Source: Verrucomicrobia bacterium LW23 (GTDB lineage: Bacteria > Verrucomicrobiota > Verrucomicrobiia > Methylacidiphilales > UBA1321). From it: a stretch of DNA of 64,000 bases. The DNA lies in contig QAZA01000056.1 in NCBI GenBank assembly GCA_003054695.1, positions 434,001 to 498,000 on the forward strand, in the 5' to 3' direction. Of the stretch, positions 9,298 through 21,785 are shown piece after piece. Both the position numbers and the translations under genes were made by a program. The first letter of the stretch is position 1. Each line of letters opens with the position of its first letter. The notes beneath the pieces were generated by a model. The model was not told the origin of the DNA, searched no databases, and saw only the letters and a program-made list of their open reading frames with translations.

Positions 9298-9361
9298 ATG
9301 GTTGTTGTGTCGTACCGTGCCCCGCTCACCTGCAGCGGTGGACATTGCCCGCACTTTCCCT

Positions 9362-12300
9362 ATGCTCCAAGTCCTCTCCAAACAACAACAGCTTCGCTGG
9401 CTCGAGGTTGGCAGGCGCTTCTCCAGCATGGGGGTCCGCGCCATACAGGACCCCGCTTTCGTATTTGACGACGCGCCCTCCACCCTGCCCGAGGCGGTGG
9501 ACCCGGCCGAAATGGGGCACCCCGCGGCCGAGGCGGGCGAACCGTCTGAGGCGGCCGAAGCAAGCCTGCCCGCCGCCGGCGAGACCGAGGCGGAGCAGTA
9601 CGAAGGCGCCGAGGCTTACGAGGCCGTGCAGGCCGCCGAAGAGCCGGACGCCTCCACCACCGCAGAGCTTGACGACACGGCCATCACCACAGAGGCCGGC
9701 ATCGTTCTCGAGGGCACGCCCGTCACCAACTTTGGCGACCTGCTGAGCATGCCGGAGCCTGCGGAGTCGGAGCCCGAGGTTGCGTCCGCGGCGTCGTTGC
9801 AGACGGACAGCGCAGTGCTCGAAGCTTTGCCCGCAATTGAGGGCGAAGTTGTTGATGATGAGGTGGTTGCAGAAGCAGTCGTTGATGAAGCCGTGGAGAC
9901 GCCGGCTCCGTCCACAGAAGCTGACCAGCCCGTAGCAACGGAGGAATCCGTTGCGGAGACGTCGGCCCACGCGGCTGGGGAAATCCGTGCCGCGGCGGAC
10001 GACAGCGCAGTAACGGCGCCCGTGGAAGCGACAGCGCAGCCGGCGGTGAGCACCGATGCGGAATCGCAACCTGTTGCCCTGGAGGATGTTGCGTCTGTGG
10101 TGTCGGCGAGCATCCCCCAGGCTTCGGACACATCTGAGCAGGTCGCTGTCGAGACCGGGGAAAGTGCTGCGGAGATGACACGTGCCGCGAGCCGCGAAGG
10201 CGTTGCCACGGCTGATGTCGAAGCACCAGACACCGCAATTGCGCCGACTGCCGAGCCCGATAAGCCGGAGGTGGAGCCCATTGCAAGCGCCGAGCCGCAA
10301 GCGGAGGCAGCCCCCGCCTCAGCCCCGGAACCCGAGCCGGAGCCGGACCTGACGACGCTGAGCGCCGAGGATTGGGCGCGCGGCATTTGGGGCGAGCCTG
10401 TGCAGGCTGAGGAGACCGAGGCCGCGTCCCCCTCCGCCGCTGCCGCCGCCGACGCAAGCGTGGAAAGCTGGAAGGCCGTCGCGCCGGAACTGGCGCCGGC
10501 CATCGAAACATGGGCGCGCACCGCACCGGAAGCCGAAAGCGCCGCCGCCCTGTCCACTCCCGCAGAACCCGAGCCCCAGCCCGAGCCCTCCCCAGCGCAA
10601 GCTGTAGAGGCGGAAACCGCTGCCGTACCCGAATCCACGAAGGTTGCAGCAGCAGCGCCGGCGACGGACACCGCTACGGTTGCCGCCACAGCGCCCGCCA
10701 CGGCGACCGAACAAACCGAAGCGCCGGCACCATCCGATACCGCCGCCGAGCTGGCCGCGCCGGAGCTGGAGCCAGAATCGATCGCCGCCCCCACGGCCGA
10801 CGCCTCCGAAACGCCGGCTCCCGCAGAAGCAGCGGCCGAAGCGCCGGAAGCCGTGGCCGACGAGCCCCTGCCAGCCGCAGGCGGCGACTCCTTTTTTGGC
10901 GGCGCCGACTTTTTTGCGCAGACGCCGCCCCCGCCGGCTCCGCTCACCAAACCGGCGCTCTCCGCCAGCACGCGTCCCCGCCTCCCCAAGCCGCTGCCCA
11001 CCCGGCCCCGCTACCTGGAGACGCGGCACATCGACGCCCGTAACCTGGAGCCTTTCAAGCCCAGCGCCGCCACCGTGCCCGCCGCGCCGCCGGAACCCAT
11101 CGCAGCGCCCGAGCCTGAGGAGCAGGGGCTGCGCTCAGCGGAGAGTCCCGCCTGGCCGGAAGCTTCAGCCGACATCGCGGATGCTGAGCCCGGCGTAGAA
11201 GCCGCCGCGCCCGAGGTGGAGCCTGAGCCCGCCGCAACTGCAACCGCCGGCTCCCCCGCAGGCGAGCCCCCCGCTGAGGAACCCGAAGATTTTGTAGCGG
11301 CCGAGTTTTTGTCGGCCCCGCGCAACGCGGAGCTGGATTCCGTTGCCGAAGCCGCGACGGATGCCGTGCCGGTCGCAGTCGATCCCGCGGCCTCAACCGT
11401 TTCGGACGAAGCACCGGATGCCTCCACAGCACCGATCGAATTCGTCACCACCGCGCCTGAGGCAAGCGCCGAAGCCGCCATTGTTGCGACCCCAACAGAG
11501 GCAGAAGCCGAAAGCGACGCGATATCCGCAGCCGACGCACTGCCCGCTCAGCCAATGCCTGAGGCATCCGAAGCGCCTCCCGCAGAACCGCTTACGAGCT
11601 CGGAGCCCGACGTGGTCGAAGCGATTGAGCCCTCGCAAGCGGACGCAATACTCGAACCCGGCGAGCCGGCCCTTGTCGCGCCACCGGCCGCCGGCGAAAC
11701 GCCGGACGAAGCAATATCGGCCGACGATTCCCCCTCGGAATCGGAACCGCTCGCCGAGCTTTCGACCGAGACGGAACCGGTGACTGCCACTGCCCCCGCC
11801 GGAGAAGTTTCGGAGATCCCCGAATCGCAGCCGTTGCCGGAACCCGCCAGCGCCTTCGCCCCCGAGGAGGCAGAGGCCCCCACCGCAACGGAGAGTGAGG
11901 AGCTGCAGGCGGCCCACGCCACCGAGCCCGCCGACGCTACGGCCGCGCCCGCCACCATCGCCGCCACGTCCAACGAGCCCGAAGCGGAACTCCCCACCCT
12001 GCCTGCTGCCCAGGCTGCAGAGGAGGGTCCCGGCCCCGCGCCCGCCCCGCCCGCGGCGCCAATGCCCACCTCCGCGCCCGCACCCGCCACGCCGCGACTG
12101 CTGCGTGCGGTAGGAACCGGGGCCCCCACGCTGTTCCGGCAGCGCAGCACGGTCGTGACACCGCAACCCCAGGTGGCGGCCACGGCGGAGCTTCCCCCTT
12201 CCGAGCCCAAGCCGGAGCCCGAGCTCGCGACGCCCGCCATCCCTGCCGAGGAGCCTGCTCTGGCCGCGGCGCCCTTGCTCCAGCGCTCCGCAGGTGCGGC

Positions 12301-13039
12301 ATCCATCGGCGAGAAACCGGCGGCGGCGCCTTTATCCCGCGCGGGTGCAGCTGCGCCGCAACTGCCCAAGTCGGCCTCCAGCACGGGGCCGCTCCCCGCG
12401 GTGAGCATATTGCGACGGCAGGCGCCCAGTCTCACGCGGCCCAAGCGCCCGCTTCCGGCGGCGGTACGGCCTATCTTTCCCAAGCAGGCGTCTACGGTAG
12501 TCGTGCTTCCCTCGGCGATGGCCGCGGCGCCGGTTTCGCCGCCGTTGTTGCGCTCGCAGCGGGCGCCGCTTACCGCGTCGCAAATCGCCGTCCCCGCCGC
12601 TGAAACCCCTGAGCCAGAAGCTGTTACGCCGGCACCTGCCGCCCCGCCCGTCTCGCCTGCCCCGCCCGCGCCTCGCGCGCCGGTGCTTATCAGCCGGCGC
12701 CCCGTCGCGTTGCCCATCGCACCTCCCTCGCCGTCGTCGATTGCGGAGGCTATACCCATGCCGCAGAATCCCGGCGCCAACTTCTTTCCCAAGCCGTTGC
12801 CGTGGGAGATGAAGTCGAGCGTCCCCGCCGGCGGCGGTGAGGGAGAGGCGCGCACCCCGGCGCCCCTGCAGCGCCCGGCCCCGCCCGCGCCGCCCCTGGC
12901 GCTCAGCAGGTCCGGTTCGGCACTCCACCCGGCTGCCGCTCAGGCGCCCGCAACCGCCCAACCCGGCAAGGCCGCCGCCGCAACGCCGCCCCCCAAGGGC
13001 GATGCCTTTTTTGATGACCTGCCGTGGGAGAAAAGCTAG
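9362..13039 (+). CDS. Giant intrinsically disordered Ala/Glu/Pro-rich protein
   Basis: 1225 residues with no recognised domain. Only the first ~40 residues look ordered (LSKQQQLRWLEVGRRFSSMG). The rest is low-complexity Ala/Glu/Pro/Ser/Thr with almost no aromatic residues, except short islands: DWARGIWGE, FFGGADFF (511-518), a basic stretch ARPRLPKPLPTRPRYLETRH-like after it, FFPKPLPWE (1141-1149) and FFDDLPWEKS at the extreme C-terminus (1216-1225). The C-terminal third becomes basic and Pro-rich. No signal peptide, so probably cytoplasmic. Acidic first two-thirds and basic last third suggest a scaffold or tether with repeated short binding motifs. Codon use and GC are like the neighbours. 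A V4R-like gene follows 93 bases downstream. Function unknown. Confidence 0.75.
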   Translation: MLQVLSKQQQLRWLEVGRRFSSMGVRAIQDPAFVFDDAPSTLPEAVDPAEMGHPAAEAGEPSEAAEASLPAAGETEAEQYEGAEAYEAVQAAEEPDASTTAELDDTAITTEAGIVLEGTPVTNFGDLLSMPEPAESEPEVASAASLQTDSAVLEALPAIEGEVVDDEVVAEAVVDEAVETPAPSTEADQPVATEESVAETSAHAAGEIRAAADDSAVTAPVEATAQPAVSTDAESQPVALEDVASVVSASIPQASDTSEQVAVETGESAAEMTRAASREGVATADVEAPDTAIAPTAEPDKPEVEPIASAEPQAEAAPASAPEPEPEPDLTTLSAEDWARGIWGEPVQAEETEAASPSAAAAADASVESWKAVAPELAPAIETWARTAPEAESAAALSTPAEPEPQPEPSPAQAVEAETAAVPESTKVAAAAPATDTATVAATAPATATEQTEAPAPSDTAAELAAPELEPESIAAPTADASETPAPAEAAAEAPEAVADEPLPAAGGDSFFGGADFFAQTPPPPAPLTKPALSASTRPRLPKPLPTRPRYLETRHIDARNLEPFKPSAATVPAAPPEPIAAPEPEEQGLRSAESPAWPEASADIADAEPGVEAAAPEVEPEPAATATAGSPAGEPPAEEPEDFVAAEFLSAPRNAELDSVAEAATDAVPVAVDPAASTVSDEAPDASTAPIEFVTTAPEASAEAAIVATPTEAEAESDAISAADALPAQPMPEASEAPPAEPLTSSEPDVVEAIEPSQADAILEPGEPALVAPPAAGETPDEAISADDSPSESEPLAELSTETEPVTATAPAGEVSEIPESQPLPEPASAFAPEEAEAPTATESEELQAAHATEPADATAAPATIAATSNEPEAELPTLPAAQAAEEGPGPAPAPPAAPMPTSAPAPATPRLLRAVGTGAPTLFRQRSTVVTPQPQVAATAELPPSEPKPEPELATPAIPAEEPALAAAPLLQRSAGAASIGEKPAAAPLSRAGAAAPQLPKSASSTGPLPAVSILRRQAPSLTRPKRPLPAAVRPIFPKQASTVVVLPSAMAAAPVSPPLLRSQRAPLTASQIAVPAAETPEPEAVTPAPAAPPVSPAPPAPRAPVLISRRPVALPIAPPSPSSIAEAIPMPQNPGANFFPKPLPWEMKSSVPAGGGEGEARTPAPLQRPAPPAPPLALSRSGSALHPAAAQAPATAQPGKAAAATPPPKGDAFFDDLPWEKS

Positions 13040-13132
13040 TCTGCCGAGCGTGGGGAGACAAAGGCGCGCCGCCGCGGCAAAGCTCGGTTATCCCTCCCCC
13101 GGCACTTTTCCCTCACCTCTCCACCTTTACCC

Positions 13133-13810
13133 GTGACAACCCCCGCCGCCGCATCCACCCCGCCCGCCGCAGCGCCGCCGCCCGTGCTGTTTGCGGAGCT
13201 GTTTGACGACAGCCGCGTGGTGCACGATTTGCGCGATGGCGCCCTGTGGGACGCCGCGCACACACGCCTTTGCCTGGCGCCAGCCGACATGCTGGCCGGC
13301 ATCGCCCACGGCGTGCGCGAGCGCGCCGGCGAGAAATGGCGCCCCGCCCTGCGCCAATGCGGGGCGGCATGGGGCCGCCGGGTGGCGGAGGGCCTGGACC
13401 GCGCATGCCAGGACACCCTCAAAAAGCGCCTCGGCGCCATATCCATGGACGCCTTCCTGCGCTACATTGTCCGCTACTACAGCTTTGGCGGCTGGGGCCT
13501 GCTGGAGATGGACCTCTCCCTCGCGCGCCGCGGCATTGTGCAGGCCAGCCTTCGCGACTCGCTGTTTGCCTTTGCCACCGCAAGCGAGGTGCACGAAGCA
13601 GACGGCATGGCCGATCCCATGACCGAGGGGCTGCTCGCCGCGATGCTCTCCTACCTCTCCGGACACGACCTGGACTGCGTGCAGACGGCCTGCACCACCC
13701 GCGGCGCGGAGGCATCCCGCTTCATCATCAGCGCCCGCCCCCGCGTGGCCATGTTTGCGGAGCGCGTGCAGGCGGGCATGAGTCACGAGGAAATCATCGC
13801 CATGCTGTAG
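13133..13810 (+). CDS. V4R (4-vinyl reductase)-domain-like protein
   Basis: 225 residues starting at GTG 13133. After a Pro/Ala-rich leader of ~20 residues comes a compact domain. The pattern RRVAEGLDRACQDTL...FLRYIVRYYSFGGWGLLEMD and the C-terminal EGLLAAMLSYLSGHDLDCVQ-TACTTRGAEASRFIISAR is like the V4R small-molecule-binding domain (a basic residue/ligand pocket ending in a Cys-containing strand pair). V4R domains sense small hydrophobic ligands or support enzyme assembly. No DNA-binding domain is fused. It lies downstream of the giant disordered protein on the same strand and may be co-transcribed. The assignment rests on pattern resemblance only. Confidence 0.6.
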   Translation: MTTPAAASTPPAAAPPPVLFAELFDDSRVVHDLRDGALWDAAHTRLCLAPADMLAGIAHGVRERAGEKWRPALRQCGAAWGRRVAEGLDRACQDTLKKRLGAISMDAFLRYIVRYYSFGGWGLLEMDLSLARRGIVQASLRDSLFAFATASEVHEADGMADPMTEGLLAAMLSYLSGHDLDCVQTACTTRGAEASRFIISARPRVAMFAERVQAGMSHEEIIAML

Positions 13811-15148: not shown

Positions 15149-16435
15149 CTACGCAAACCGCACTTCAAGAATCGATAAATCGTCCGCGAAATTATCGTGG
15201 CCCTGCTGGCGGCGCACTTCGGCTACAACGGCGTCCAGCTTGGTTTTGTCGCAGGGATTGGGGTCGGGGATGAGGATCTGTTCCAGGTCTTCCAGCTCCA
15301 TCATCTCGCGGCCGGGGCGCTTTACCTCGTAGGCGCCGTCGCTAAAGACGTAGAGGCGGGCGCCGGCCGGGATTTCCGTCGTGTCATTCTCAAACTCCGA
15401 GAAGCTGAGCGCGCCGATCATCATCCCGCGCGTGCGCAGCATTGCCGTCTGGTGGGGGCCGTCGCCGGTGGGGCCGGGCGTGCCGGTAATGAGGATGGCG
15501 GGGGGATGGCCGCCCGTGCCATAGATCATCTTCCGTGTATCACGATTAAACACGCCGTACCACATGGTAAAGTACATGTTGTTGTTCTTTTCCATCGGGT
15601 AGGCGCCGTTCAGCGCTTTCAGCACGTCGGCCGGCTGGTGAAAATCGACACCGCCCGAGCCCGCGCCGTCCGTCAGGCTGCGCGTTTTCAGCGAGTTCAG
15701 GATCGAGACGCTTAGCAGTGCTGCGCCGACGCCGTGGCCGCAGACATCCAGCAGAAAGATGGCGAAATGCGTCTCATCCAGCCACAGATAACCGAAGGCG
15801 TCGCCCCCTAAGCTTGTGGAGGAGAAGAACTTCCACGACGTGGAGATAGGCCCGGCGCTTAGCGGGGCGGGCAGCAGGGAGCGCACATATTCGGCCGCCT
15901 CCTGAAGCTCGGCCGCCAGCGCGCGCTGGCTGGCCATCAGCGCGTCGTACGCGTCGTTACGTTGCAGCAAGGTGATGTAAGCGTTGGAGTGATAACGTAT
16001 TCGCGCGATCAGCTCGATGCGGTCCGGCAGCTTTACCAGGTAGTCGTTGGCGCCCACGGCAAACGCCTCGGCCTTCACCTTCGGCTCCTCCTTGGCGCTT
16101 AGCACAATCAGCGGGACTTGCGCCGTGGCCGGGTTGGCGCGAAAGGTGCGCACCATCGTCAGACCGTCGATGCCCGGCATGATCAGGTCGAGCAGAATCA
16201 GCGTGGGATGGAACTCCACGGCCATGGCCTCGGCGCGCGCAGGGTCGCTGCAAAATCGGAAGTCGATGCCCGGCTCCCCGGCCAGCATGCGCCGCACGGC
16301 CTCACCTATAAGCAGCTGATCATCAATGAGAAACACTTTGATGGCGTGGTGCCGAATCTCGCCGCGGGCCGCCGTTGCCAGGGCGGCGGGGGGTGCGGTT
16401 GCGGCCGATGTCTCCGGAGAAGCTTGTGTCGTCAT
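15149..16435 (-). CDS. Response regulator with SpoIIE/PP2C phosphatase output
   Basis: 428 residues. Receiver domain about 32-155 (FLIDDQ acidic pair, phospho-acceptor in LILLDLIMPG, VLSAKEEP, conserved lysine in YLVKLPD), a short helical linker (~160-195), then a PP2C-type SpoIIE phosphatase with the metal-binding aspartates in LGGDAFGY, FLLDVCGHG, FSDGAYE and HDNFADDLSIL. Such RsbU-like proteins dephosphorylate anti-anti-sigma factors. It is the last gene of a chemosensory run (CheW, CheA-REC, CheB, this gene), in the place held by the GGDEF regulator WspR in Pseudomonas Wsp systems. It is therefore the likely output, phosphorylated by the CheA upstream. Confidence 0.92.
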   Translation of the reverse strand: MTTQASPETSAATAPPAALATAARGEIRHHAIKVFLIDDQLLIGEAVRRMLAGEPGIDFRFCSDPARAEAMAVEFHPTLILLDLIMPGIDGLTMVRTFRANPATAQVPLIVLSAKEEPKVKAEAFAVGANDYLVKLPDRIELIARIRYHSNAYITLLQRNDAYDALMASQRALAAELQEAAEYVRSLLPAPLSAGPISTSWKFFSSTSLGGDAFGYLWLDETHFAIFLLDVCGHGVGAALLSVSILNSLKTRSLTDGAGSGGVDFHQPADVLKALNGAYPMEKNNNMYFTMWYGVFNRDTRKMIYGTGGHPPAILITGTPGPTGDGPHQTAMLRTRGMMIGALSFSEFENDTTEIPAGARLYVFSDGAYEVKRPGREMMELEDLEQILIPDPNPCDKTKLDAVVAEVRRQQGHDNFADDLSILEVRFA

Positions 16436-16536
16436 GGTCGCGGGGGGAGGAGGGTCGAGGGATAAACTGGCTGGTTAAACTCTTACAGTAATATCAATAA
16501 AGGATCATTTTCTTGGCAACGCCCGGGCGCCTGAAA

Positions 16537-17589
16537 TCAATCGTCGTACGGCACGGTTGTCGCCCAGCGGATCAAACGCTCCGCAATCCTCTCCAGCGGA
16601 AGCACTTCGCGGGCGGCGCCCAGTTCCACGGCGGCGCGCGGCATACCATACACCACGCTTGATTCTTCGTCCTGCGCAATCGTCAACGCGTTGGCTCGTT
16701 TCAGGTCCAGCAACCCGGCTGCGCCGTCCTTGCCCATGCCTGTCAGCAGTACGCCGCAAAGCCTTGCGCCGCGGCAACTTGTGGCGGATCGAAACAGCAC
16801 GTCCACGCTTGGGCGATAGGGTGTCTCGGTTGGCACTGCCGTATAATATACCGTACGGTTCGAGCGAATCGCCAGGTGATCCTCCCGCGAAGCCACCAGA
16901 ATTTTGCCCGGCTCCAGCGCATCGCCGGGCTGGGCCATGCGCACTTTAAGCCGGCATTGATCCTGAATCCACTGCACCAGACCGTCCACAAAATGGTGGT
17001 CCACATGCTGCGTAAGTGCCACAGCTGCAGGAAAATCCGCCGGCAGCGCCGCAAAGATGGATGCCAGCGCCTGCGGCCCGCCGGTGGACGACCCGACGAC
17101 CAGAATCGGGAACGGCGGCGCCGCCGGCATCAACCGACGCGAGCCCTTCATCATCAACCGCATACGCTGTGTCGTCGTCGCGTCCGGCCGTCCGCCGCTG
17201 AGAATGCGCAGCCGGTCCATTTTGCGCAGCAAAAGCGCGCCGCCTTCCATATCCCCGTTCAGGTCCAGAGTCGGCGTGTCCACAGCATCGGCGGCGCCGT
17301 AACCCATGGCGTCGTACACGCGCGACGTGTTGCGCTCCACCCCGGCCGTGACGATGAGGATCGTGCAGGGCGTCAGCTGCATAATGCGGCGCGTGGCCTC
17401 CACGCCGTCCATCACGGGCATGATCAAGTCCATCAGGATCATGTCGGGCCTGTCGGAGAGGCACTTGCGCACGGCTTCGTCGCCGTCGCGGGCGATCCAG
17501 CATACGGTGTAGCGCGGCGCGGCCTCCGCCACCACGCGGCGCAGCGCCTCGGCGGCAAACGCCATATCATTAACAATGGCAACCTTCAT
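16537..17589 (-). CDS. CheB-type receiver-methylesterase, WspF-like
   Basis: 350 residues. N-terminal receiver with MKVAIVNDMAFAAEALRR, where the acidic pair is Asn-Asp, as in WspF, and MILMDLIMPVMDGVEATRR as phospho-site. The C-terminal methylesterase (about 160-345) has the catalytic triad in VVGSSTGGPQ (Ser), LTQHVDHHF (His) and TGMGKDGAAG (Asp). CheB enzymes remove methyl groups from receptor glutamates and so set adaptation. The gene lies 57 bases after cheA and 101 bases before the phosphatase gene. No CheR methyltransferase or receptor gene occurs in the window, so its substrate is encoded elsewhere. Confidence 0.93.
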   Translation of the reverse strand: MKVAIVNDMAFAAEALRRVVAEAAPRYTVCWIARDGDEAVRKCLSDRPDMILMDLIMPVMDGVEATRRIMQLTPCTILIVTAGVERNTSRVYDAMGYGAADAVDTPTLDLNGDMEGGALLLRKMDRLRILSGGRPDATTTQRMRLMMKGSRRLMPAAPPFPILVVGSSTGGPQALASIFAALPADFPAAVALTQHVDHHFVDGLVQWIQDQCRLKVRMAQPGDALEPGKILVASREDHLAIRSNRTVYYTAVPTETPYRPSVDVLFRSATSCRGARLCGVLLTGMGKDGAAGLLDLKRANALTIAQDEESSVVYGMPRAAVELGAAREVLPLERIAERLIRWATTVPYDD

Positions 17590-17646
17590 TCAACGGCGCG
17601 TTCCCGGCGCAATGCGTTTTGCCATAAAGTATTGCCTTGCTGCATG

Positions 17647-20600
17647 TTAGACGGCCTTGCCTATGAGATCCTCCACGGCGCTCACCAGTCCGGCGTCGTG
17701 AAAGCTGCTTTTGGGGAAGTAGTGGTCTGCCCCGGCGTCGAGCCCCTCGGCGCGGTCTTCGGGCCGATCCTTGTAGCTTACGATCATCACCGGCAGGCTC
17801 TTGAGACGAACATCCTCCTTGATTTTGCGCACAAGATCAATCCCCGTCATGCGCGGCATATCTACATCCGTCACAACAAGATCGTACTTGCTGGCCCGCA
17901 CCATGTTCCAGCCTTCCATGCCGTCCACGGCCACGTCTACGGAGTAGCCGTAATTCTCCAGCAGGCGCCGCTCCGCTTCGCGCACCGTTATGGAATCATC
18001 GACGACAAGCACGCGCGGCACGCGGCGGGTGGCCGGCGCCTCCGCCTGCTGAATGCGCCGCAGGCCACCGCCGGAAACCAGCGTATCGATTGACCTCACA
18101 AGGTCATCCACATCAAGCACTAACGCAATGCGGCCGTCCTCCATCACGCTGGCGCTGCTGATGTCCGGCACCTTGCCCAGGCGGGGATCCAGCGGCCGCA
18201 CCACCAGGTCGCGCGCGCCCAGAAACTCGTCGACGACCAGGCCGTAGCGGTTCATCCGGTCGCTCACCACCACCACGTTCACCTCGGCGGAGGGCTGCGG
18301 ATCAAGGGTGGAGGCAAGCTTCAAAATCTCCTGCGCGGAAACCAGGCCGACGTTGCCGTACTGATTGCAGCTCAAGTACATACGGCCTTCCAAGCTGTCC
18401 AGGTCGCTACGCGGCACACTGGCGGTTTTATCGATACGCGCCAGCGGCAGAGCGTACGGCTCGTCGGCCACCCGCACTATCAGCGCCTTGATGACAGAGC
18501 GGGTGATCGGCACGCTGATCTGGAACGTCGTACCCACATTCTCCCGGGCGTGCACGTTAACGGACCCACCGGCCGCCTGCACCACGTGCCGCACCACATC
18601 GAGACCCACGCCGCGCCCGGAGACATCCGTTACCCGCGTGGCCGTGGAGAAGCCGGGCAGGAAGAGAAATTCCATCACCTCCGCCTCGCTCAGCCGCCCC
18701 ACAACCTCCGCCGTTTCCAGCCCGCGCTCCACCACTTTCTGGCGCAGCTTATCGATGCAAATGCCGTGCCCATCGTCACTTAGCGTGACGACCAGCACGC
18801 CGCCGCGATGGCGCGCCTCCACGCGCAGCACCCCTTCCTCCGGCTTGCCCAGGGCGCGCCGCTCCTCGGGCGTCTCCAGGCCGTGATCCACCGCGTTGCG
18901 GATAAGGTGCGTTAGCGGTGCCTCCAGCTTTTCCAGAATCTCGCGGTCCACCTTGGTATCCTCGCCCATAATCTGCATGCGCACTTTCTTGCCCAACTGC
19001 CGCGATAGATCGCGCACCAGCCGGGGGAATCCGTGCGTGCCATCCGCAAAAGGCCGCATGCGGGAGGAAAGCACCGCCTGGTAGAGGCGATCCGCCGTGT
19101 TGCCAAAGCGATGCATGTACGAGTCGAACTCCTGCATCCACGCCGCAAGCGTCTCGCTGTTAGCGGAGAGAATGTGCGTAAGCTCCGTAAGCAAATAGCC
19201 CCGCGCCCCGCCCACCGCCGCGCCGTTACCTCCGCCGCTTGTTGTTGTTGTGGTTGTGGAGGATACCGATGTGCCTGCGATAGCGCCGCCCCCGGGTAAA
19301 ATGGTAGGCAAAAACGGTAGCGGCACGCCCGACTGCGCGTCGGCACGCAGCCCGGAGAGACCGGCCAGAACGCTGTGCTCATGCGCACTCATCGGCGCCA
19401 CGCCGCCGGTGCCGGCCATCGCGTTCAGCTCGCCGGGGGTAAGCCCCATGCGCACCCCCTCGCCGGTGATGGCGCCGGACTGCATCCGCGCCAGCACGCC
19501 GCCCAGCTTGTTTTGCTCCTGCCGAAACGCCGTTAGCCGCAGCGCCAGCGCCTCCATCTGCCGCGAGCCCACTAAAACCTCCGCCGCCAGCCCCGTAAGG
19601 CTGGAAAGCAGCTCCGCGGAAATACGAACGGTCGCCTCGTTGCGCGGGGCCATCGCGGCGGCCACCTCGCGCGTGTGCGACTCCTTCGCGTCGTCGGGCA
19701 GCTTGCTCAGATGCCTCGGCGAGGCCTCCGGGCGCGGCTTTGCGGGAGCGGCAGTTGCAGCCGGTGTCACTGATGCAACCGGGGCGACAGCAGCTTCCGA
19801 AGCTGTTGTATCCAGGGAACTTGTGGCAGGAGCCGCCGATGCCGAACGCAGCCGCACGGCAACCTCTTGCATGGCCTCGCGATTGCGCTCAAGCCACTCC
19901 GCCAGTCCATCGTTGGGAGAGGCCGCGGCCTCATGAAAGAAACGCACAGCCACATCCAGCAGCGACGAACGTTGCGTGGCCAGATCCTGTCCGGAAGCCC
20001 GCCAGCGCGACAAGCTGTGCTCCATAGCGGACGCAAGCTCCTGGATCTCAACGCATTCCACAATCTGCGCGCACGACTTTGCCGCCTGGCATGCCTGAAT
20101 CATCTCCTGCTGCAGCGCCATGTCGCGCCGCGCCGCCCCCTTATCCACCGCATGCAACGCATCGTGCGTCTCATCCGCCGCGCGAAGGCACTCCTCTATC
20201 ACGGCCGCCTGCCGGGCCAGCTCCTCACGAAACAAGCCGAGAAACGAGAGCTCCCCCTTTTCCAGCGCCGCGTCGTCGACGGAAGTGTGCGGAGCGGCAG
20301 CAGCCCCATGCCCCGGCGGCAGCGGCTGTACAAAGCCCGCCGCTCCGCTCGCAACGTGTTTCTCCGCAACTACTTCCGACTTCGGTGCTGGCTCATCCGC
20401 CCGCTGCCTGGCCAGCGCACGCTCGCTCAGGGCGGATGCTGCGGCGTCGCTCTCCAGCAGTCCGCAAAGGCGGGCCTCCAGCACGGCCACCTCGCCTCGA
20501 ACGCTCGCCTTCCAGCTGTCCACCTCGTGCTCCTGCAGCGTGCGCAGGCGAGTAAGGAAATCGACGGCCGTCAACAGGTCGTCCACCTGCGGGGCGCCCA

Positions 20601-20865
20601 GCGCCACCCGGCCCTGTTGCGCGGCCACAAAAACATCCTCCATCATGTGGGCCACGCGCTCGGCAGGCTCCAGCGCCACAATGCGCGCGGCGCCTTTTAT
20701 AGAGTGGGCGGCGCGCATCAGCTCCGCCAGCAGCGCGTCCGGGTCGGCGGTCGTCTCCAGCGCCACCAGCCCGTTGCTCAGCGCCTGCGTCTGCCCTTCC
20801 GCCTCGGCACGAAACAGCTCCAGCATCGAGAAGCCGCCCGAATCCATGAGATCGTCGCCGGACAT
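17647..20865 (-). CDS. CheA-type hybrid histidine kinase with C-terminal receiver, WspE-like
   Basis: 1072 residues. Order: Hpt domain with phospho-His in AAHSIKGAAR (His54); a second Hpt-like helical region (~205-320) in which the matching segment reads ACQAAKSCAQIVE, Gln replacing His; low-complexity linker (~345-390); dimerisation region; kinase core with HLIRNAVDHG (N), DDGHGI (G1), FLFLPGFST (F) and GRGVGLDVV (G2); CheW-like domain; and a receiver with LVVTDVDMPRM and the lysine in FPKSS. This matches the CheA-REC hybrid of the Wsp/ACF class of chemosensory systems. The own receiver can act as a phosphate sink. Followed by cheB and the phosphatase regulator. Confidence 0.93.
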   Translation of the reverse strand: MSGDDLMDSGGFSMLELFRAEAEGQTQALSNGLVALETTADPDALLAELMRAAHSIKGAARIVALEPAERVAHMMEDVFVAAQQGRVALGAPQVDDLLTAVDFLTRLRTLQEHEVDSWKASVRGEVAVLEARLCGLLESDAAASALSERALARQRADEPAPKSEVVAEKHVASGAAGFVQPLPPGHGAAAAPHTSVDDAALEKGELSFLGLFREELARQAAVIEECLRAADETHDALHAVDKGAARRDMALQQEMIQACQAAKSCAQIVECVEIQELASAMEHSLSRWRASGQDLATQRSSLLDVAVRFFHEAAASPNDGLAEWLERNREAMQEVAVRLRSASAAPATSSLDTTASEAAVAPVASVTPAATAAPAKPRPEASPRHLSKLPDDAKESHTREVAAAMAPRNEATVRISAELLSSLTGLAAEVLVGSRQMEALALRLTAFRQEQNKLGGVLARMQSGAITGEGVRMGLTPGELNAMAGTGGVAPMSAHEHSVLAGLSGLRADAQSGVPLPFLPTILPGGGAIAGTSVSSTTTTTTSGGGNGAAVGGARGYLLTELTHILSANSETLAAWMQEFDSYMHRFGNTADRLYQAVLSSRMRPFADGTHGFPRLVRDLSRQLGKKVRMQIMGEDTKVDREILEKLEAPLTHLIRNAVDHGLETPEERRALGKPEEGVLRVEARHRGGVLVVTLSDDGHGICIDKLRQKVVERGLETAEVVGRLSEAEVMEFLFLPGFSTATRVTDVSGRGVGLDVVRHVVQAAGGSVNVHARENVGTTFQISVPITRSVIKALIVRVADEPYALPLARIDKTASVPRSDLDSLEGRMYLSCNQYGNVGLVSAQEILKLASTLDPQPSAEVNVVVVSDRMNRYGLVVDEFLGARDLVVRPLDPRLGKVPDISSASVMEDGRIALVLDVDDLVRSIDTLVSGGGLRRIQQAEAPATRRVPRVLVVDDSITVREAERRLLENYGYSVDVAVDGMEGWNMVRASKYDLVVTDVDMPRMTGIDLVRKIKEDVRLKSLPVMIVSYKDRPEDRAEGLDAGADHYFPKSSFHDAGLVSAVEDLIGKAV

Positions 20866-20951
20866 GTAGCGTGGTGGAAGGAGTTAGAGGAAAAGAAAAA
20901 AGTTAGAGAAATCGCAACGCAACGCTTTGCATAGCAAAAACTTACCGCACG

Positions 20952-21701
20952 TTACATGTGATTCTTGCGCAAATAATAGAACACAAGGTCATCATCCAGC
21001 AACGCGGCCGATTGCCCTCCGTGCGTAAACACGCCGCGGCTGAATGTTGTGTGCGACTTGGCCACCGTAACCGGCACAGGCTTAAGGTCTTCCGCCTCGT
21101 CCAGCTCCGTAACGCCATAAAATTCGTCCACAGGGAAAACCCAGGTGGCCCCCTCCTTGCTTGCGACAGCCAGGCGCTTATACACGGTGTCGCTCAACTT
21201 GACGCGTCGCTCATCCACCGGCGCCTCGTCAATGCCTAGCAGGCGCGCCATGGAGAAGCAGATCTGCACCTCCCCGCGCACATTCACCAGGCCCAGCAGC
21301 ACCTCCGACGTGCGATGCGGCACGCGGCGCACCTCCGTGCGGTCCATCGCCTCGCGAAACACCTTGGCGCACATGCCCAGCCACTCGCCGCCCAGGCGAA
21401 ACAGCATGACTTGACGCAACTTCCTTATCCGCTGCACTTTAGGCTCGGAAAGCAGCGTCATCCACTGCAACATGTAGCCCTCCGGCGCGGGCCGGTCCAG
21501 CAACTCACGCCCCGCCCTCGCATACACGGGGCAATTGCGACAGTGCGTCATTACCTCCAGCTGGGGGCAGGTCGCATCGCCCTCGGCGCCGATAGAACTC
21601 CAGCAAAAAGGCGGCGGCACAAACTCTTCAGCCCCAGCGCCTTGCAACACCGCGCCTTCCCGGGCTGAATGTGTGGAGGTGCCGCTTTCGCTCTCGCTCA
21701 T
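20952..21701 (-). CDS. CheW-like coupling protein, WspD-like, with a four-cysteine N-terminus
   Basis: 249 residues from ATG 21701 (in-frame extension to 21785 is not homologous). Residues 33-57 carry CW..IG..GD..CP, then HCRNCPVYARAG and LLDRPAPEGY, the hallmark of WspD-type coupling proteins; the four cysteines (C33, C45, C54, C57) follow C-X11-C-X8-C-X2-C and could hold a metal or Fe-S centre. A CheW domain follows (~95-245): VMLFRLGGEWLGM, VPHRTSEVLLGLVNVRGEV, WVFPVDEFYGV. It links receptors to the CheA immediately downstream (86 bases). A pseudopilin gene lies 84 bases upstream on the same strand. Confidence 0.88.
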   Translation of the reverse strand: MSESESGTSTHSAREGAVLQGAGAEEFVPPPFCWSSIGAEGDATCPQLEVMTHCRNCPVYARAGRELLDRPAPEGYMLQWMTLLSEPKVQRIRKLRQVMLFRLGGEWLGMCAKVFREAMDRTEVRRVPHRTSEVLLGLVNVRGEVQICFSMARLLGIDEAPVDERRVKLSDTVYKRLAVASKEGATWVFPVDEFYGVTELDEAEDLKPVPVTVAKSHTTFSRGVFTHGGQSAALLDDDLVFYYLRKNHM

Positions 21702-21785
21702 GCCCGCACTATACACGCAAACGCCCGCGTGGGCAGGAGAAAAGCGCGGGGAGCTTGCATGCCGTCCGTCAGGTAGTGACGACAA

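Follow-up and report, generated by a model that had tools for sequence, protein, structure and literature searches.

A motif-bearing, low-complexity protein beside a V4R gene in Verrucomicrobia bacterium LW23 as a probable linker of a V4R/bilin-globin complex

What is the role of a 1225-residue protein that is rich in alanine, glutamate and proline, finds no family in Pfam or NCBIfam, and ends in a short aromatic motif? The question is raised by an open reading frame (ORF) at 9362-13039 (+ strand) of a 64,000-nucleotide stretch of Verrucomicrobia bacterium LW23 (contig QAZA01000056.1, positions 434,001 to 498,000), hereafter the window. Comparison with other genomes that carry the gene next to it suggests that this protein is probably the linker of a V4R/bilin-globin complex, encoded in what is known as the pre-PcyA/BBAG cluster (BBAG, a bilin-binding globin), and that its motifs dock onto V4R proteins. 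Its position beside a V4R gene and its membership in that cluster were beyond what an initial annotation of the window could see.

The presumed partner, a 225-residue protein with a GTG start (13133-13810, + strand), is encoded on the same strand as the linker, its gene starting 93 bp downstream. Clades A and B of V4R proteins were assigned by tblastn scores, and this region, which scored E 4.5e-40 with the V4R-B of genome G341 vs E 1.1e-8 with the V4R-A of the same genome, is classified as a clade-B V4R-type protein. Its identity to the V4R-B of three other genomes is 33-34%, and to that of two Acaryochloris replicons 24%; its Pfam V4R match (PF02830, E 6.7e-5) reaches 23.3 bits, below the cut-off of 31, and G341 V4R-B itself has no Pfam match. 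V4R-B is rare among the genomes searched. Counted in overlapping sets of genomes, its carriers number 6 among 384 of the class (one being the window genome), 3 among 387 of the phylum under a stricter limit, both members of one family (2/2) and 6 among 223 in the order to which G341 belongs; among 60 near relatives the only carrier was the window genome itself (0/59 in the others). No viral contig encodes a V4R-B relative, and the V4R-B profile had no match among PDB sequences.

Eight other genomes, presumably of Verrucomicrobiota, carry V4R-B (G341, G192, G105, G081, G195, G688, G678 and G649), with V4R-A adjoining it in all eight. In each of them a low-complexity protein is encoded between V4R-A and V4R-B, or as the first of two genes between them, and bears one to six copies of the motif F-[FLM]-x-x-(hydrophobic)-x-W, a few of which begin with Y or V. 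These linkers are mutually unalike in sequence and, with that of the window, range from 74 to 1225 residues, but the 28 canonical copies across 11 linkers have identical spacing. After the first five genomes had been analysed, a linker was predicted for G688, G678 and G649 before their sequences were examined, correctly in 3 of 3: the copies are FFRHLPW, FFTALPW and FFTNLNW in G688, FFGSINW, FFSRVPW, FFGNLNW and FFNSVRW in G678, and FFAALDW, FFSKIPW and YFKNLPW in G649. G341 has FFNSAKW, FFQNISW, YLAKANW, FLKSSTW, FMQNARW and FFEEAAW, and the sequence LALHALPW of G192 was left out of the copy count. At the C-terminus, the linkers of G105 and G081 have FFKKMAWKKG followed by two residues, that of G195 has VFKKIPWKK and that of G192 FLSQLPWK. 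In 8 of the 9 non-cyanobacterial linkers, window included, the tryptophan lies within the last six residues (the exception is G341), against 2 among 224 further ORFs in these loci; this control counts the linker of Acaryochloris locus L029 as a non-linker, so that one of its five ORFs with at least two motifs is in fact a linker. The initial annotation had called for orthologues that keep the C-terminal motif while the rest diverges, and the motif is indeed kept in 8 of 8 other V4R-B genomes, at the C-terminus in 7 of them, between chains that are unalike. Its proposal of a disordered tether that carries short linear binding motifs is likewise supported by these comparisons. Pfam found nothing in the linkers of G341, G192, G688 and Acaryochloris plasmid pREC2, and only a weak ENT match in that of G649.

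The window protein carries the canonical motif once, as FFDDLPWE (residues 1216-1223, 13007-13030, + strand), with the tryptophan three residues from the end. FFPKPLPWE (residues 1141-1149, 12782-12808, + strand) is a variant copy, with one residue more between FF and W than in all 28 canonical copies, and FFGGADFF (residues 511-518, 10892-10915, + strand; FFxxAxF) is at best a degenerate one, in which F would replace W. All three had been placed correctly by the initial annotation. A search of the 6.6-Mb genome with a degenerate DNA pattern encoding FF-x(1-3)-LPWE gave two matches, both inside 9362-13039, and none for the reversed control; matches to FFDDLPWE in two contig stretches of other genomes (Synergistaceae, Bacteroidales) were treated as chance. 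When the protein was shuffled 200,000 times, a motif with W in the last six residues arose in 0.043% of the chains. A single copy anywhere arises in about 10% of shuffled chains of this length and is thus not rare alone, so that the weight of the motif in the window lies in its place and conservation and not in its mere presence. Per-protein shuffles gave p <0.003 for linkers with at least two copies and 0.03-0.10 for single-copy linkers, so that for the latter, the window included, it is position and the neighbouring genes that carry the case. The window protein has both the same-strand place beside V4R-B and the C-terminal canonical copy.

The chain between these motifs is as the initial annotation described it. 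The frame is open from the ATG at 9362 (a TTG at 9302, 60 bases upstream, would give 1245 residues), and its codon-position GC of 0.76/0.62/0.75 is consistent with a coding frame and with an A/P-rich content. By simple composition 83% of the residues are disorder-promoting, and aromatics amount to 8 W, 19 F and 3 Y. The reported change from acidic to basic is also borne out: net charge per 100 residues is -15 to -26 across most of the first 900, with an exception of -2 at 501-600, and +1, +7 and +4 after residue 900. The strong-looking promoter noted earlier did not withstand inspection, its sole sigma-70-like match (9/12, 9339-9366; 1 found vs a mean of 0.3 in shuffles) overlapping the ATG at 9362. 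Because this is the only promoter-like match, the high expression that had been deduced from it is not supported.

The genes around the linker in G341 connect it to a described system. In order, they encode an Fe-S protein, V4R-A, the linker, a phycobilisome-family globin, V4R-B, a kinase, a protein of ~190 residues, a heme oxygenase and a ferredoxin-dependent bilin reductase (FDBR), and the locus is a pre-PcyA/BBAG cluster as described by Rockwell et al. 2023 (PMC10151467). That cluster comprises two V4R proteins (clades A and B), an Fe-S protein, a globin with a CXRD motif, an FDBR and often a heme oxygenase (PMC10151467), and most of these members are present in five loci or genomes here. 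Neither the linker nor the ~190-residue protein is mentioned as a member in the portion of PMC10151467 covered. The window genome shares V4R-A, V4R-B, BBAG (with CTRD) and FDBR with the cluster and differs from it in that these are not clustered but lie in at least four places; variable pre-1 clusters with distant genes were noted by the same authors (PMC10151467). Its V4R-A is at C45:969418, on another contig, and is 40% identical to that of G341. The BBAG is at a separate locus (C10:271142; PF00502 over the cut-off, motif present as KCTRD), as is the FDBR (C56:286685; PF05996, E 2e-21), an assignment at the level of the family and not of the pre-PcyA lineage. Heme oxygenase (PF01126) had no match in this genome, which is 95% complete and may hold a divergent one.

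In the model that we favour, the C-terminal motif would dock on V4R, and in the window organism the docking partners would be V4R-B from the next gene and V4R-A from another locus. Further copies could let one chain, presumably disordered in the cell, hold several V4R units, plus the globin where present, in a larger assembly. G105, G081 and G195 (94-100% complete) have no match for PF00502, PF05996 or PF01126 and keep V4R-A, a linker with one motif, and V4R-B; because these genomes retain the three genes without globin, reductase and oxygenase, the V4R pair is the foremost candidate for the partner.

The arrangement extends to cyanobacteria. A tblastn search with G341 V4R-B matched two Acaryochloris marina plasmids (a Planktothrix match at E 0.2 was dropped), both with the gene order V4R-A, small protein, slr0146-like, V4R-B, Fe-S protein, 'allophycocyanin'. 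The small protein of pREC2, in the position of slr0145, has 120 residues and three copies (REFLEGYNWSG, QTFFSQFNWTG and QAFFQHFIWEG). The slr0146-like protein matches the phycobilisome family weakly (E 0.0093), which gives these plasmids the same succession of V4R-A, linker, globin and V4R-B as in G341, G192, G688, G678 and G649. A search of PDB sequences with the Acaryochloris linker returned only weak matches without evident meaning (best E 0.099). The pREC3 counterpart is an unannotated slr0145-type ORF with three motif copies and its tail in another frame (L029:7096-7434), and extra copies of the Fe-S protein near an Acaryochloris cluster (L028:15266-15748 and 12832-13065) suggest duplication. 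In Synechocystis, Slr0144-Slr0149 are reported to interact, on the strength of co-fractionation and an Slr0149-GFP pull-down, and the cluster proteins are described as located at the thylakoid (PMC9880817); the operon slr0144-slr0152 has been tied to the function of photosystem II (PSII) (PMC9145668). The likeness of the window protein to the Slr0145 position is drawn through Acaryochloris, whose protein between V4R-A and the slr0146-like gene has three copies, and not through Slr0145 itself; the two differ in that the Acaryochloris protein has 120 residues with little linker, vs 1225 in the window.

Several observations weigh against a V4R-docking linker in the window. The linker of G341 has six internal copies and none at its C-terminus, and a loose form of the motif pattern also matches folded V4R proteins, so that the pattern alone is not specific. 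An N-terminal element, M-x-x-W-x-x-x-H-x-x-R, is common to 6 of 9 linkers; the window protein scored -1.0 bits against it (E 1.4, not significant), and since G105 and G081 are also without it we did not treat it as defining all linkers. A second element near the linker end, N-x-L-x-x-G-L-x-x-A-x-x-T, is common to five linkers and is not in that of the window. (The start methionines of the G192, G105, G195 and G678 linkers were chosen by hand and the G081 ORF was used without its first residue, choices that affect N-terminal statements and not C-terminal ones.) The window genome has the linker with V4R-B, V4R-A, BBAG and FDBR in four separate places, so that neither V4R-A nor the globin shares the linker locus. 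The ~190-residue protein could be the motif partner instead of V4R, and none was found near the window V4R-B. An AlphaFold2 model of V4R-B alone was poor (mean predicted local distance difference test score 54) and was not used. The window protein is thus an outlying, much lengthened member of the group, in which the canonical motif occurs once, a variant once and a degenerate form possibly once.

Could the motif instead be the docking site of the globin, as in a primitive phycobilisome linker, with the V4R neighbours being incidental? Canonical copies number two to six in the five other genomes whose cluster includes a BBAG, three in each of the two Acaryochloris proteins and one in each of the three BBAG-less genomes, and the order linker-globin-V4R-B is that of G341, G192, G688, G678, G649 and Acaryochloris (with a degenerate globin). 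Copy number tracks the presence of BBAG (2-6 vs 1) only if the variant copy of the window is counted, and the relation is weak both for this reason and because two of the three BBAG-less genomes share one genus. We consider globin docking unlikely, as G105, G081 and G195 keep the C-terminal motif without a PF00502 match in genomes 94-100% complete, and the window genome has a BBAG yet only one canonical copy and one variant. The aromatic cluster with its fixed spacing might also suit an amphipathic membrane or lipid anchor, or a site that, jointly with V4R, binds a small hydrophobic ligand; the reported thylakoid location of the Synechocystis cluster proteins (PMC9880817) and the small hydrophobic molecules that V4R domains are said to bind (PMC13174344) would fit this. 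The motif has just seven residues, and its flanks are acidic in some copies (DAFFDDLPWEKS) and basic in others (FFKKMAWKKG), a range uncommon in membrane-anchoring helices; we hold an anchor or ligand site to be decidedly unlikely.

A more sceptical view is that the window protein has no kinship with the linkers of the other genomes and is an ordinary low-complexity protein, its place before V4R-B and its FFxxLPW ending being coincidences. It lacks both of the further conserved elements, exceeds the other non-cyanobacterial linkers 2.4- to 17-fold in length, and has no close relatives that we could find, V4R-B being absent from all 59 other near genomes. Set against this are the C-terminal placement, reached by so few shuffled chains, in a gene at the right place, and the LPW form, which is the same in G192, G688 and G649; we therefore hold coincidence to be very unlikely. 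Finally, FDDLPW resembles DDDIPF, the ending of the single-stranded DNA-binding protein (SSB), whose acidic C-terminal tail recruits DNA-repair enzymes. Pfam found no OB-fold domain, the chain continues past W and does not end in Phe, and the equivalent tails are basic (FFKKMAWKKG, VFKKIPWKK), so this explanation, scarcely credible, was rejected. The V4R-docking linker thus remains the reading that we prefer.

Among known scaffolds, EPYC1 and CsoS2 are repeat-motif proteins regarded as disordered chains whose spaced short motifs gather copies of a folded partner. The V4R-cluster linkers would resemble them in this design, with no sequence relation claimed, and differ in that the partner is probably V4R and not Rubisco. 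Phycobilisome linker polypeptides of the CpcG/ApcE type (PF00427) have folded linker domains; they share with the present proteins an association with phycobiliprotein-type globins, whereas the window linker has no such domain by Pfam and V4R-cluster linkers look disordered.

Further genes recur in these loci. The ~190-residue protein lies downstream of V4R-B in 8 of 8 other genomes (L017:3677-4252, with equivalents in L018, L021, L049, L050 and L051), weakly so in G105 and G081 (L019, L020), has no Pfam match in G341 and is, after the linker, a second member of the cluster still to be assigned. Five genomes have a protein-kinase-like gene in the cluster after V4R-B, or close by (L017:4249-5991, L018:4913-6796, L049:10315-12093, L050:6676-8439, L051:11306-13048); slr0152 of the cyanobacterial cluster encodes the Ser/Thr kinase SpkG, and the kinase may be an old cluster member. 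A gene for a helix-hairpin-helix protein precedes that of the Fe-S protein or V4R-A in five clusters (L017:9601-10305, with equivalents in L018, L049, L050 and L051). In the window itself, 15149-21785 on the - strand holds what we take to be a chemotaxis-like block (response regulator/phosphatase, CheB-, CheA- and CheW-like ORFs). A tie of the linker to these genes at 15-22 kb was discarded, as they lie on the opposite strand and no such block was noticed in the ORF listings of the other linker loci.

Rockwell et al. (PMC10151467) describe BBAGs as having no known function as yet. Phycobiliproteins share a clade of bilin-binding globins with BBAGs, and in cyanobacteria the cluster has an effect on PSII. 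That the unassigned gene between two V4R genes carries a conserved motif offers a concrete handle on the partner and on how the complex coheres. The protein stays recognisable by seven residues while its chain ranges from 74 to 1225 residues, which is why family searches miss it. In the literature searched, including the portions covered of PMC7189237 (which mentions slr0145 or slr0146), PMC13174344 and PMC6002478, with supplements and subscription papers outside this scope, neither the motif nor a linker role is described. We tentatively suggest that the motif could be a code, new to that literature, which would organise V4R/bilin-globin assemblies in heterotrophic bacteria and cyanobacteria (Slr0145-type) on a disordered scaffold that predates, or parallels, the phycobilisome linkers, and which may physically hold the PSII-associated Slr0144-Slr0149 complex together.

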